Source of the DNA: Vulcanimicrobiia bacterium | GTDB lineage: Bacteria > Vulcanimicrobiota > Vulcanimicrobiia > Eremiobacterales > Eremiobacteraceae | Assembly: GCA_025450855.1 (NCBI GenBank) | Contig: JANWLL010000156.1 | Location: forward strand, 1-54,686 | Length of the DNA stretch: 54,686 bases | Reading direction: 5' to 3' | Shown here: positions 23,565-44,116 of the stretch, piece by piece | How the letters are laid out: every line of letters begins with the position of its first letter | How positions within the stretch are numbered: position 1 is the first letter of the stretch | The notes under the pieces: model-generated | Databases searched by the model: none | Told to the model about the DNA's origin: nothing | The model's input: only the letters and a program-made list of their open reading frames with translations | Translations under genes and position numbers: made by a program

Positions 23565-23701
23565 GGGAGCGGTCGAGATTCATCTCGACCGCCGCGGTCT
23601 CGCCCGAGTGAGAAAGGGAGCGGTCGAGATTCATCTCGACCGCCGCGGTCTCGCCTGAGTGAGAAAGGGAGCGGTCGAGATTCATCTCGACCGCCGCGGT
23701 C
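23565..23701. repeat. Tandem GCGGTCGAG palindromes, 51-bp period (copies B1-B3)
   Basis: Three copies of GGGAGCGGTCGAGA-TTCA-TCTCGACCGCCGCGGTCT, starting near 23566, 23617 and 23668, spaced exactly 51 bp apart by TCGCCYGAGTGAGAAA. They lie between the convergent rimP and threonine dehydratase-like genes. The period is a multiple of three, which creates a false repetitive ORF. Each unit can form a 10-bp stem with a TTCA loop. Confidence 0.92.
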
Positions 23702-24673
23702 TTACACGGCGCCGATCAGTTCTGCGAACTTGGCGAGATCGATGTTCCCGCCCGACACGACCGCCACGATGGGGCCGGTGCCCGCCTTGCCGGAAAGCGC
23801 TGCGGCGACCGGAAGCGCGCCCGCTCCTTCGGCTACGACGCGCGAGCGCTCCGCGAGCATCCGCATCGCTCGCTTCACTTCGTCGAGCGTCACGACGATC
23901 GATCCGTCGACGACGTCCTTCATCCGATCCCACATCCGCGGGAAGATGCTCTTTCCGCCCGCGCCGTCGACGAAGGTCGCTTGCCAGCGGCCGAACTTCA
24001 TGGGCGCTTTCGCCGCGAACGATGCGGCGCCGGGCGCAGCGGTCTCGGGTTCGGCGCCGAGCACGCGGACGCGTTTCGAACGAGCTTTGATGCCCGAGGC
24101 GATGCCGGAGATGAGCCCGCCGCCGCCGATCGCGGCGACGACCGCGGAGACGTCGGGAAGGTCTTCAACGATCTCCAAGCCGATCGTCGCGTTGCCCGCG
24201 ACGAAGTCGTCGTCGTCGAACGGATGGATGAACTCACCGCGGACGCCCGGGAATTCGCGCTTCTCCATCGCTTCCCAACACGAGTCGAACGACGCTTTGA
24301 CGAGCCGGGCGCCGAGCGCTTGCATGCGCTCGACTTTCGTGTCGGGTGCGGTGTCGATCGTGACGACGGTGCACGGCACGCGCGCCTGACGCGCCGCGTA
24401 GGCGACGCCCTGGCCGGCGTTGCCGGCGCTGATCGTCCAAACGCCTTCCGCGCGACGATCGGCGGGAAGCATCGCGACTGCGTTCGCAGCTCCGCGAAGC
24501 TTGAACGAATTCGTCGGCTGGAGATTTTCGAGCTTCAAATAGATCTCGGGCTTGGGAACGCCGTGGTCGAGCCGGATGAGCGGCGTGCGGATGACCGTGC
24601 CCTTGATACGCTCGCGGGCCGCTTCGATCGCCTCGATAGATATAGGACGTATTTCAGGAAGCACTTGTTGCAT
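23702..24673 (-). CDS. Threonine/serine dehydratase-like PLP enzyme
   Basis: A 323-residue fold-type-II PLP enzyme of the threonine dehydratase/serine racemase group. The Schiff-base Lys is K58 in TNSFKLRGA. The phosphate-binding Gly loop is AIGGGGLISGIASG near residue 180. The C-terminal SGGNID segment is present. It is short and lacks the regulatory ACT domain of biosynthetic IlvA, so it resembles catabolic threonine/serine dehydratases or serine racemases, and the reaction (ammonia-lyase or racemase) remains open. The start is ATG 24673 with the family N-terminus; the upstream extension overlaps the thioredoxin-like gene. Its stop abuts the palindromic repeats. Confidence 0.88.
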   Translation of the reverse strand: MQQVLPEIRPISIEAIEAARERIKGTVIRTPLIRLDHGVPKPEIYLKLENLQPTNSFKLRGAANAVAMLPADRRAEGVWTISAGNAGQGVAYAARQARVPCTVVTIDTAPDTKVERMQALGARLVKASFDSCWEAMEKREFPGVRGEFIHPFDDDDFVAGNATIGLEIVEDLPDVSAVVAAIGGGGLISGIASGIKARSKRVRVLGAEPETAAPGAASFAAKAPMKFGRWQATFVDGAGGKSIFPRMWDRMKDVVDGSIVVTLDEVKRAMRMLAERSRVVAEGAGALPVAAALSGKAGTGPIVAVVSGGNIDLAKFAELIGAV

Positions 24674-27745: not shown

Positions 27746-29470
27746 CTATAGGTCGGCGATGAGCGATCGCGCTCTGACTCGCGCCTGATCCGCGTCGAGC
27801 GTGCCTTCGGCGAGCTGACGCACGAGCTGGCCGAACTCGCGGGCACGCAAACCTTCGAGCGCCGAAGAGACGCGCGCCGCGAGCGAGCGGATGGCGCTTC
27901 GCTCGTCCGGATCGTACGGCTCTTCCGAGCGCCGATCGCCGCAGACAAGTGCTCCCATGAGACGCCCGTGGGCGGCGAGCGGAAAGAGGCAGCCCGAGCG
28001 GCCGAGGACGCTTTCGACATCCGCGAGATCGATATCGCGAAGGTACGTCCGCAAACGTACGAACGCCGGATCGTCGACGGGAATGTTCGCGGAAAAATCG
28101 GCGCCCGATCGAGCGGAACGCCGGTACGATCCGTCGGCATCGGCGAGGTAGATGGCGGATCCGCACGCGCCGAGCTCCGAGCGGACGATCTTGACGGCGC
28201 GATCGAGCAAGATCTCCGCGCGCGTCACGAACGGCGCTTCGTCCGCGGCTTTAGCGAGTTCCGCCTGTGCCCGATGCTTGCGCCGGAAGAAGATGCGATC
28301 GATCGCGGTTTCGACGCGTTTCTGTAGCGCGTTGAACGACAGCGCGAGCGCGAGCGCGACGGCCACCTGCAGCACGAGGCCCGCCCCCGGGCCGACCGCA
28401 GCCCGCTCGATGACGCCCGAGAGCAACGCGAAGACGATGACGACGAGCGTCGTGATGGCGGTGAACACGATCGCGCGGTTGATCGCGAAGCCGACGTCGA
28501 TGACGCGATGCCGCAAGATCGCATACGAGTACCCGATCGGGATAGCGACCATCGTGACGTTCATGATCGGATACGACGGGATCGGACGCCCGACGATCAG
28601 CGCGCCGAGGTAGATGAGGACGCCTGAGAACCCGACGAGCGTGGAGGCGAAGATCCATTTGACGCGCTGACGCGCCGCACCCGACGACGCGACATACGCC
28701 GCCGTCAAGACGACTAGCGTCGCGACGAGAACGAGCATGAACGGGATCGTCACGGTCGCGGCCAGCGCGGACGACGCGCAGACGCCGGCCGCGACGTCGC
28801 GCACGTAGACGATTGTGCTCACCGCATCGGCGGCAAGCCCACCGACGACTACCGTCCGCGCGACCGCAAGCCACCCGCGCGAGAGCGCTTGACCGGATAA
28901 CCGCTCGACCATGATGTAGAGAAAGAGCGCTGCTACGTCCGCCGACATCCGGGCGACGATCGTATACCAGACCTGCATGCCCGGCTCGAGCCACGAGCTC
29001 GGTTCGGGGTGCACGGCGACGGCGATCGCGAGGCTCGAGATGCCGAAGAAGAAAGCGGCGAGGTCGCGACCGCGCCACAAGACGAGCGCGCCGACGCCGT
29101 AGACGATCAGCTTCGACAGGATCGCGAAGAACCAGAAGAACCATGGCGGCTGCGGCGACGTCTCGACCTGAACCACCGTGCTCTGCCCGTCGCGCGCGAT
29201 AGGCAAAGCGATCGGTCCGCCCGCGCGCACGCTGCCGCTCGCGAGAAAGATCCGGGCTGCGCTCGGCAGCGCCCTCTGATCGACGGCATCGCCCGCTCGG
29301 ATGGCGACAACGCCTGAGCCGGAAACGATCTCCCCGAGCGTGAGCGAACACGCACCGCGCGGCGCGAACGAAGGCAGCACGCCGCTGTCGACGGTCATCG
29401 ACGCGAACTGAATACCCAGCAATACCAACGAGACAGCCGTGATTGCAGTCGCAGCTATTGTCCGTACCAT
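27746..29470 (-). CDS. Membrane sensor with GAF domain, no output domain
   Basis: A 574-residue protein. It has an N-terminal membrane anchor, an extracytoplasmic segment of about 100 residues (35-110), then seven or eight helices, including the segment PIGYSYAILRHRVIDVGFAINRAIVF seen in sensor kinases of this type. After a coiled stretch (RVETAIDRIFFRRKHRAQAEL) a GAF domain (about residues 400-545) follows, with GCLFPLAAHGRLMGALVCG. The sequence then ends with a short helical tail; no HisKA, HATPase, GGDEF or effector domain is present. It lies downstream of the diguanylate cyclase on the same strand. It may signal through a partner. Confidence 0.78.
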   Translation of the reverse strand: MVRTIAATAITAVSLVLLGIQFASMTVDSGVLPSFAPRGACSLTLGEIVSGSGVVAIRAGDAVDQRALPSAARIFLASGSVRAGGPIALPIARDGQSTVVQVETSPQPPWFFWFFAILSKLIVYGVGALVLWRGRDLAAFFFGISSLAIAVAVHPEPSSWLEPGMQVWYTIVARMSADVAALFLYIMVERLSGQALSRGWLAVARTVVVGGLAADAVSTIVYVRDVAAGVCASSALAATVTIPFMLVLVATLVVLTAAYVASSGAARQRVKWIFASTLVGFSGVLIYLGALIVGRPIPSYPIMNVTMVAIPIGYSYAILRHRVIDVGFAINRAIVFTAITTLVVIVFALLSGVIERAAVGPGAGLVLQVAVALALALSFNALQKRVETAIDRIFFRRKHRAQAELAKAADEAPFVTRAEILLDRAVKIVRSELGACGSAIYLADADGSYRRSARSGADFSANIPVDDPAFVRLRTYLRDIDLADVESVLGRSGCLFPLAAHGRLMGALVCGDRRSEEPYDPDERSAIRSLAARVSSALEGLRAREFGQLVRQLAEGTLDADQARVRARSLIADL

Positions 29471-29488
29471 CTCGCCGAAGATTCGCTC

Positions 29489-29641
29489 GCGTAGCGGCTA
29501 CGCCTTGAGGGTCGGTTCCGCGAGGGGATGTCGCTCTAGGCGGGTGTTCTGAGGCGATGAAATCGCCGAAGACAGCGGCGGTAGGCACGTATGCCCCGAT
29601 TCGCCGCGTGCCCGCGAGAGCGACATCCCTCGCGGACCGAC
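29489..29641. ncRNA. Long imperfect inverted repeat enclosing two hairpins
   Basis: Outer arms: GTCGGTTCCGCGAGGG at 29511-29526 continuing GATGTCGCTCT to 29537, pairing with 29617-29641; about 25 bp with two single-base bulges. Inside are a GCGGG/CCCGC extension (29540-29544 with 29611-29615), a hairpin GGCGAT-GAA-ATCGCC (29553-29567), and GCGGCG/CGCCGC (29575-29580 with 29602-29607) enclosing GGCA-CGTA-TGCC. A further hairpin, GCGTAG-CGG-CTACGC, lies at 29489-29503. It could be a multibranch RNA or a miniature element with terminal inverted repeats. Confidence 0.45.
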
Positions 29642-29656
29642 GGCGGGGTGGCCGCG

Positions 29657-29680
29657 GCGGTCGAGCTGAAGCTCGACCGC
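29657..29680. repeat. GCGGTCGAG palindrome (copy C)
   Basis: GCGGTCGAGC, loop TGAA, GCTCGACCGC, a perfect 10-bp stem preceded by GGCCGCG. Its last base is the first base of the plus-strand triplet that reads as the TAG stop of the minus-strand diguanylate cyclase gene (29680-29682). Confidence 0.85.
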
Positions 29681-30717
29681 TACATAGTAACTCTATTGCG
29701 GCCGCCTTGTTTGGCGGCATAAAGCTGTTCGTCCGCACGATCGATGAGCGACGATCGCCGGATCGCGTGGTCGCGCGCGACCGCGATGCCGACGCTCGCG
29801 GTGAGGCGGACGGGCGGCATGTCGCGCCGGTGGCGGAAGAGCGTCGTCTCGATCGCGACGCGGACGCGATCGGCGACGACCGCGGCGGTTTCGGCGTCGG
29901 TCTTCGGAAGCACGAGCGTGAATTCGTCGCCGCCGGAACGGGCGAGCAGGTCGCCTTGGCGGATCGCGCCTTCGATCGCGCGGACCGCTTGGATCAGGAT
30001 GTTGTCGCCGGCGGGATGGCCGAACGTATCGTTGACGCCTTTGAAGCCGTCGAGATCGATGACGGCGAGCGCGATCGGAAACGCGCGCTGTTTGTAGAGA
30101 TCGTCGAGCCGGAAATCGGCATAATCTCGCGTGAACGCACCGGTGAGGTCGTCGCGCAAGCTCGCGCGGCGGTCGCGGTACGCGACGGCCGTCCAGAACG
30201 TGAGGCCGGCGCCGATCGCGACGGCGTAGACGGCGTCGTACCAATGGGCAAGCCCGGAGCAAGCTAGGATGACGAGCGCGTAGGCCGCCGCGACCGGTAC
30301 CGCGAGCCGCGGCGGATTGCGGAGCACGGCGGACGCCAAACCGAAGAACGCGAGCGAAATGAAGATGCTTTGCGATCCGCCGCTCGATACGATCCATGCC
30401 GAGATGAAGACGAGATCGAGAGCGGTCGAAGCCCACGGCCAGCGTGAGACGATGTCGGACGGTCCATAGACGAGCACGAGATCGAGAATCGCGACAACCG
30501 ATGCGACGATGAGCACGACGTTCGCGGCGAGCGCGAAGGATGACGGCGGATGGACCGAGGTCATCCAAGCGATCGCCGTCGCCGCGATGACGAATATGCG
30601 GATGGGCGAGACGGTGCGCTCCATGCGCAGCTGCGCGCGCCATCGCCATGTCGCTTCGCCCGGGAAACGCCGTAGCGGTTTCGCCGCGAACGTCGTCCGC
30701 TTCGTCTTCTTGCGCAC
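29680..30717 (-). CDS. Membrane diguanylate cyclase (GGDEF)
   Basis: A 345-residue protein: six membrane helices (about residues 37-170), then a GGDEF domain that condenses two GTP to cyclic di-GMP. The active site is SGGDEF, preceded by RQGD in IRQGDLLARSGGDEF, so the inhibitory I-site is intact. DLTGAFTRDYADFRL and DLDGFKGVNDTFGHPAGD are the expected upstream motifs. The GTG at 30717 is chosen for a GAGGA Shine-Dalgarno at 7-base spacing; the longer frame would overlap the nusA promoter. Divergent from nusA. Its neighbour downstream is the GAF sensor. Confidence 0.88.
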   Translation of the reverse strand: MRKKTKRTTFAAKPLRRFPGEATWRWRAQLRMERTVSPIRIFVIAATAIAWMTSVHPPSSFALAANVVLIVASVVAILDLVLVYGPSDIVSRWPWASTALDLVFISAWIVSSGGSQSIFISLAFFGLASAVLRNPPRLAVPVAAAYALVILACSGLAHWYDAVYAVAIGAGLTFWTAVAYRDRRASLRDDLTGAFTRDYADFRLDDLYKQRAFPIALAVIDLDGFKGVNDTFGHPAGDNILIQAVRAIEGAIRQGDLLARSGGDEFTLVLPKTDAETAAVVADRVRVAIETTLFRHRRDMPPVRLTASVGIAVARDHAIRRSSLIDRADEQLYAAKQGGRNRVTM

Positions 30718-30764
30718 TGAAATTCCTCGCCGTCCGTAGCGGGTTATCGGCCGCTCTTCGGGGG

Positions 30765-30793
30765 TTGTAAACCACCACCATTCGTGGTACAAT
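30765..30793 (+). promoter_or_regulatory. Sigma-70 type promoter of the nusA operon
   Basis: TTGTAA at 30765-30770 and TACAAT at 30788-30793 with a 17-bp spacer, close to the -35 and -10 consensus. The spacer contains ACCAC-CATTC-GTGGT (30774-30788), a short inverted repeat that could be an operator. Confidence 0.75.
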
Positions 30794-40515: not shown

Positions 40516-40539
40516 GCGGTCGAGATGAATCTCGACCGC
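40516..40539. repeat. GCGGTCGAG palindrome (copy E)
   Basis: GCGGTCGAGA, loop TGAA, TCTCGACCGC, a perfect 10-bp stem, 12 bp after the DDAH-like gene stop. Preceded by GGGGA. Confidence 0.85.
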
Positions 40540-40640
40540 AGACGACCTTCTGCTCGATAGATGGCGCGGTCTACATTTACGGTCGCCCGCCCCGGTCTCA
40601 CCGTATCTATGACCTGCGCCGCCGCGTAGGCAAGGCCGCG

Positions 40641-40713
40641 GCGATCGAGCTGAAGCTCGACCGCTCCCAGCTTTTAGGCAAGGCCGCGGCGGTCGACATG
40701 AATCTCGACCGCT
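40641..40713. repeat. GCGGTCGAG palindromes in tandem, 49-bp period (copies F and G)
   Basis: Two units sharing AGGCAAGGCCGCGGCG before the stem, 49 bp apart. F: GCGATCGAGC-TGAA-GCTCGACCGC (40641-40664; one A-C mismatch). G: GCGGTCGACA-TGAA-TCTCGACCGC (40690-40713; one mismatch). Both decayed relative to other copies. The rest of the gene-free stretch 40505-40793 shows no protein feature. Confidence 0.82.
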
Positions 40714-40733
40714 CCATCCTCCATCAAAGAAAG

Positions 40734-43958: not shown

Positions 43959-44040
43959 AACAAAACTCCGTCCTCGATCGACGACCCGGAGCCGCGCCGC
44001 TTCGCCCGGCACCGACCGCCCGCCCTTCAGCGAGGCCGCG

Positions 44041-44064
44041 GCGGTCGAGATAAATCTCGACCGC
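44041..44064. repeat. GCGGTCGAG palindrome (copy H)
   Basis: GCGGTCGAGA, loop TAAA, TCTCGACCGC, a perfect 10-bp stem preceded by GGCCGCG. It lies between divergent genes (S9 peptidase start 43958 and GNAT start 44117), unlike the copies found after genes. Confidence 0.85.
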
Positions 44065-44116
44065 TCCCCACAAGCATCGGGAAGGGCGCGCGTTTCGGTG
44101 ATGGAAGCGGGGCGGC

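Follow-up and report, generated by a model that had tools for sequence, protein, structure and literature searches.

Short palindromic repeats of bacteria are usually simple hairpins, and strong covariation is normally taken as proof that an RNA is functional. REPs and REPINs, which are associated with RAYT genes, are dispersed extragenic palindromes whose inverted pairs form large hairpins. They occupy convergent and same-direction gaps, adjoin the 3' ends of genes and have intragenic copies, also in DNA repair genes (PMC3116915, PMC3733652). A REP is a hairpin of 20-40 bp with a GTAG or CGTC foot, and the cognate RAYT gene is flanked by the same repeat. Composites have been described in Pseudomonas, where some repeats next to RAYT genes consist of degenerate REPs joined to unrelated stem-loops (PMC3116915, PMC3733652). 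In the literature, the mobilisation of REPINs by RAYT has the status of a hypothesis. Rickettsia palindromic elements (RPEs) are palindromes of about 100-150 bp, found in intergenic and coding DNA and read in frame inside proteins (reviewed in PMC10969869). MITEs such as Correia/NEMIS and ERIC/RU are short non-autonomous repeats with terminal inverted repeats and RNA-like folding (PMC10969869, PMC2759123). Inversion was reported for Correia and in-frame fusion for ERIC/RU and RPEs (PMC10969869, PMC2759123); in-frame use of elements is known for RPEs, REPs and ERIC/RU (PMC10969869, PMC3733652, PMC2759123).

The palindromic module described here shares features of genomic placement, size or folding with these systems, but differs from each of them. 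Unlike a REP it is 110-140 nt long and branched; the adjacent hairpin at 29650-29683, with its GTAG foot, has the REP form. REPs are a frequent frame of the module, not its sequence. A RAYT gene flanked by the same repeat was found for the REPs, but no RAYT gene adjoins a module, and the presence of modules does not follow that of RAYT across genomes. RPEs are set apart by description: they are from an unrelated organism, whereas most module copies are extragenic and show a three-way junction with strong covariation, back-to-back pairs and a REP frame. A miniature inverted-repeat element was one of the identities offered by the original prediction. This is largely supported: the module is non-autonomous, has terminal inverted repeats and is present in many copies, intergenic and coding. 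In contrast to MITEs, no clear target-site duplication was found at three presence/absence sites, and no parental transposon ends in a search that covered RAYT genes. In addition, its outer arms vary between copies yet stay paired, with no fixed terminal sequence.

Structure of the element

The window, a stretch of 54,686 nt, is contig C156 of an assembly of 2.34 Mb that is 81% complete. According to folding and a covariance model, the whole module with its three-way junction extends over 29511..29641 of the + strand; the core covered by the model is 29523-29631. It was assigned to the + strand because the GNRA loop and the tandem G-A pairs are conserved there across copies. The outer stem P1 consists of a 5' arm (GTCGGTTCCGCGAGGGGATGTCGCTCT, 29511..29537) and a 3' arm (AGAGCGACATCCCTCGCGGACCGAC, 29617..29641), both on the + strand, in which the pairing is kept and the sequence varies between copies. 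In the window copy these arms (29511-29537 with 29617-29641) form 25 bp with two one-base bulges, exactly as the original prediction had described. The stem is continued inwards by P2 with the arms GCGGGT (29540..29545, +) and GCCCGC (29610..29615, +), which contain the predicted extension GCGGG (29540-29544) and CCCGC (29611-29615). The two enclosed hairpins were found as well. P3 (29548..29572, +) has a tandem G-A internal loop, 29551-29552 against 29568-29569; its loop is GNRA in most copies, and in the window copy it is one base shorter than in the orthologue. P4 (29575..29607, +) carries a conserved unpaired CCCGAT region. A third hairpin, said to lie just outside the stem, exists at 29656-29681, but it is not a part of the element. 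It lies within a GTAG-type REP (GTAGCGGTCGAGCTTCAGCTCGACCGCCGCGGCC, 29650..29683, - strand), a separate dispersed repeat of a type that also flanks the RAYT gene on contig C45.

Both neighbouring genes are on the - strand. The gene of a GAF-domain protein (27746..29470) has its predicted start 41 nt from the element, and the 3' end of a GGDEF diguanylate cyclase gene (29680..30792) overlaps the REP. Hence, the structure-bearing + strand of the module is antisense to both. The 196-nt region folds at -119.9 kcal/mol, compared with -83.9 ± 4.9 kcal/mol for shuffled sequences (z -7.3), and none of 200 shuffles was as good. For the opposite strand a z of -8.5 was obtained. Both strands are thus far more stable than shuffles.

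Copies and distribution

In a BLAST search of the own genome with 29400-29700 the region split into two different repeats. For the module (about 29518-29635) six further BLAST-level copies were obtained, and 12 copies were counted with the covariance model. The REP of the outside hairpin (29650-29683) is present in dozens of copies. Among 14 genomes of the family, nine contain the module. A search of the phylum with a model built from all 72 copies gave 87 modules in nine of 149 genomes; a single family of Candidatus Eremiobacterota, with four of its nine genera, accounts for all of them. The search of 117 genomes of the class agrees with this result. The second copies proposed as a check on the interval thus exist; they are patchy, with four of 70 genera occupied and copy numbers of 2 to 25. 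When the P3 sequence was sought in named GTDB contigs, matches occurred only in Candidatus Eremiobacterota. The GAF protein, used as a query against named genomes, yielded no match. A phage origin was rejected, as the P3 pattern is absent from viral contigs.

The unit of about 110-140 nt occurs singly or, in many cases, as back-to-back pairs a few tens of nucleotides apart. In genome G003 a main module is combined with a degenerate second one in most copies. This second type (CACGGCATGCCCCGCGAGG...CCTCGCTTGGGCATGCCGTG), seen at loci such as L079, L081 and L082 as the other half of most pairs, is well conserved between copies. We also considered modules as the ends of a larger autonomous transposon. 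This was rejected: the only pair with wide spacing, L128 at 2.1 kb, has a hydrolase-like gene between its modules and, judged by eye, no recognisable transposase.

Conserved fold and covariation

A first consensus from 14 full-length copies of the window genome and one other species of its genus comprised 33 base pairs, with two-sided changes at 17. In the alignment of 72 copies two-sided changes were present at 31 of the 33 pairs, with contributions from all five helices. The compensatory changes named as a check in the original prediction were therefore found. Paired cells made up 92%, compared with 71% after shuffling, and the covariation score was 0.491, compared with 0.127 for shuffled and 0.025-0.05 for slid alignments. 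All fold measures on the 72 copies exceeded every one of 500 shuffles and the slid controls. These figures lean towards structure, since the alignment was fitted to the covariance model; for covariation, the slid controls scored no more than one tenth of what was observed. Of 63 readable copies, 54 have a GNRA loop in P3, and in most the tandem G-A internal loop flanks it; both motifs are confined to the module's + strand. Outer P1 differs between copies at almost every site with the pairing retained, and the arms of P2 and P4 are conserved in sequence. Known Rfam families were ruled out, as no match to the module was obtained at the gathering score and a relaxed threshold gave matches at chance level only.

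Position relative to genes

Using genes from a simple codon-usage caller, the gaps holding modules were classed as convergent (26), tandem (24) and divergent (3); the corresponding numbers for other gaps in the same loci were 8, 53 and 41. Convergent gaps are enriched (p = 1e-8) and divergent gaps are avoided (p = 2e-6). In same-direction gaps orientation was unbiased, with 12 copies sense and 15 antisense. Position and orientation agree better with a DNA insertion tolerated at these places than with an RNA acting in cis. No shared neighbour gene was seen among the loci read, and the element is not tied to GAF or GGDEF genes. The constant gene association and sense orientation that characterise a cis-regulatory RNA were thus not found for the copies. 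The original prediction had also considered an RNA structure within the 5' region of the GAF sensor gene. This is not supported, as the element is a dispersed repeat, is antisense to both neighbours and shows no preferred orientation. A GAF riboswitch was rejected because of orientation, position and copy distribution, and a riboswitch for this gene is not supported.

Genera g3 and g4 have some copies that are read in frame; these are a minority, and the window copy is not among them. The Mfd protein of G013 has about 33 extra residues at the module, which are missing in the homologue of G010. In genus g4 (L132, L133, L130) the module sits where murF meets the gene that follows and fuses both in frame by a repeat-encoded linker; the two genes are separate in all eight other genera and overlap by ATGA in G005. 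A similar read-through in G013 joins an O-antigen-ligase-like gene to the following lipoprotein gene (names by eye). The ImuB-like genes of G003 and G012 each carry a module copy, as seen with module-containing homologues only. Coding copies occur in either orientation. A palindrome in frame in protein genes, a feature of RPEs, is thus found in Mfd, in the murF fusion of g4 and in ImuB.

Orthologous sites

Sister species share the window copy and several others at orthologous sites. Mobility in those lineages is therefore slow or past. At other orthologous sites one of the species has no module, a truncated one or one overrun by REPs. Inversion in place between sister species was detected for a 267-bp pair (L099 vs L115) and for a 130-bp single module (L104 vs L107), each with the flanking genes in register. 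At three presence/absence comparisons no clear exact target-site duplication was found, nor an exact boundary.

Between close orthologous pairs 20 of 396 paired and 33 of 265 unpaired sites were changed (p = 7e-4). The changes comprised 51 double compensated, 8 single pair-preserving and 25 pair-breaking ones; these totals are rough, because the inversion of L099/L115 made non-corresponding modules be compared. At the orthologous loci L102 and L111 both outer stems are well paired and quite different in sequence, which suggests copying from arm to arm or conversion from another copy.

REPs and RAYT genes

A REP within 95 nt 3' of the module was present for 4 of 12 copies in G000, 7 of 16 in G001 and 14 of 21 in G003, compared with 8%, 2% and 0% of background intergenic stretches in these genomes. 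In G003 module and REP are separated by a nearly constant distance, in most cases 22-27 nt, and single modules are part of complete REP-module-REP units. Inverted REPs around the module form composites at L080, L085, L088, L089 and L095 (G003) and at L108 (G001); the REP of the window copy is one-sided. At one orthologous site a bare inverted REP pair in G000 (L176) corresponds to the same pair enclosing a module in G001 (L108). The copies of G010 and G012 are without these REPs. Thus, the module is not simply a component of these REPs. Further REPs were observed in the window, namely three of GGAG type with 98% matches in a 51-bp tandem array at 23565-23702, and others at about 18749, 35767, 40518-40715 and 44034-44067.

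Two RAYT genes (Pfam Y1_Tnp) were identified, each with its own inverted REP type, one GGAG and one GTAG. Contigs C39 (L031) and C45 (L032) of G000 hold two complete REPtrons in Eremiobacterota. No module lies beside the RAYT genes at the 15 RAYT loci. Modules are present together with no detected RAYT in G004, G011 and G013, one of which is only 72% complete, and RAYT is present without modules in G002, G007, G008 and G009. RAYT as the only agent was rejected, as its presence does not track that of the modules and no module adjoins its genes.

Discussion

In our view the interval is one copy of a non-autonomous, dispersed palindromic DNA repeat family, confined to one family of Candidatus Eremiobacterota; we put the probability of this at roughly 0.7. 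Its behaviour is that of a small mobile DNA element from an undescribed family rather than that of a switch controlling the nearby sensor gene. It is well supported that the module family is new in form, with a branched, covarying fold, and ordinary in kind, with palindromic, probably mobile repeats at gene ends. As single-stranded DNA or RNA the module would fold into the long P1, its continuation P2 and a three-way junction with P3 and P4. We infer that copies spread by transposition of this folded strand, in which the fold would be what the enzyme recognises. The modules, often framed by inverted REPs to a REPIN-like composite, may be carried by the RAYT (Y1/HUH) transposase along with their REPIN; solo copies without REPs could spread by the same or another enzyme. 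Modules accumulate at gene 3' ends, where insertion would be least harmful. Any effect on mRNA, such as protection or processing of the 3' end, would be secondary.

Compatible with this, the covariation may come mainly from DNA template switching in palindromes, by which arms are homogenised and spacers inverted, and the fold would need no function. Template switching is described as making and maintaining hairpins and compensatory changes (PMC8794818), and as homogenising the arms of inverted repeats and inverting the spacer (PMC8604942). The variable but paired outer P1, the excess of double compensated over single pair-preserving changes and the two inversions in place agree with it. It accounts for the perfection of the stem, but not for the identity of the element, and leaves the dispersal, the conserved unpaired bases, the strand-specific GNRA loops and the conserved P2 and P4 arms unexplained. 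As the main source it is possible, though rather unlikely; a part of the P1 covariation may have arisen from template switching during replication.

More tentatively, the modules could be a new class of mobile element, in which a branched three-way junction serves as single-strand substrate and is recognised by an enzyme through its shape, not its terminal sequence. Such an element could travel alone, as back-to-back pairs or as REPIN cargo and could fuse adjacent operon genes in frame. We consider this doubtful.

It is improbable that selection keeps the modules at gene ends as a structured RNA with a function, be it a 3'-UTR element, a processing signal or a multicopy sRNA. The covarying junction, the conserved unpaired bases, the GNRA loop and the tandem G-A pairs would suit such an RNA, as would the copies downstream of genes; selection on it also fits the fewer changes at paired than at unpaired sites since the sister species split. 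However, neither a sense preference nor, among the loci read, a common neighbour gene nor an Rfam family was found, the distribution is patchy, copies in coding genes take either orientation, and inversion in place occurred between sister species. A simple bidirectional intergenic terminator, suggested by the strong stem and its frequent place between convergent genes, is very improbable, as the flanks read by eye have no T run after the stem, termination needs no branched conserved core, many copies lie in same-direction gaps and in-frame coding copies exist.

The modules are also a warning case: strong covariation is found in a dispersed DNA repeat, and template switching could produce part of it. 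The fusion of murF with its neighbour shows a gene fusion made by an element in a poorly studied phylum. A branched covarying family nested in REPINs would widen the possible cargo of RAYT-type systems or of other enzymes.
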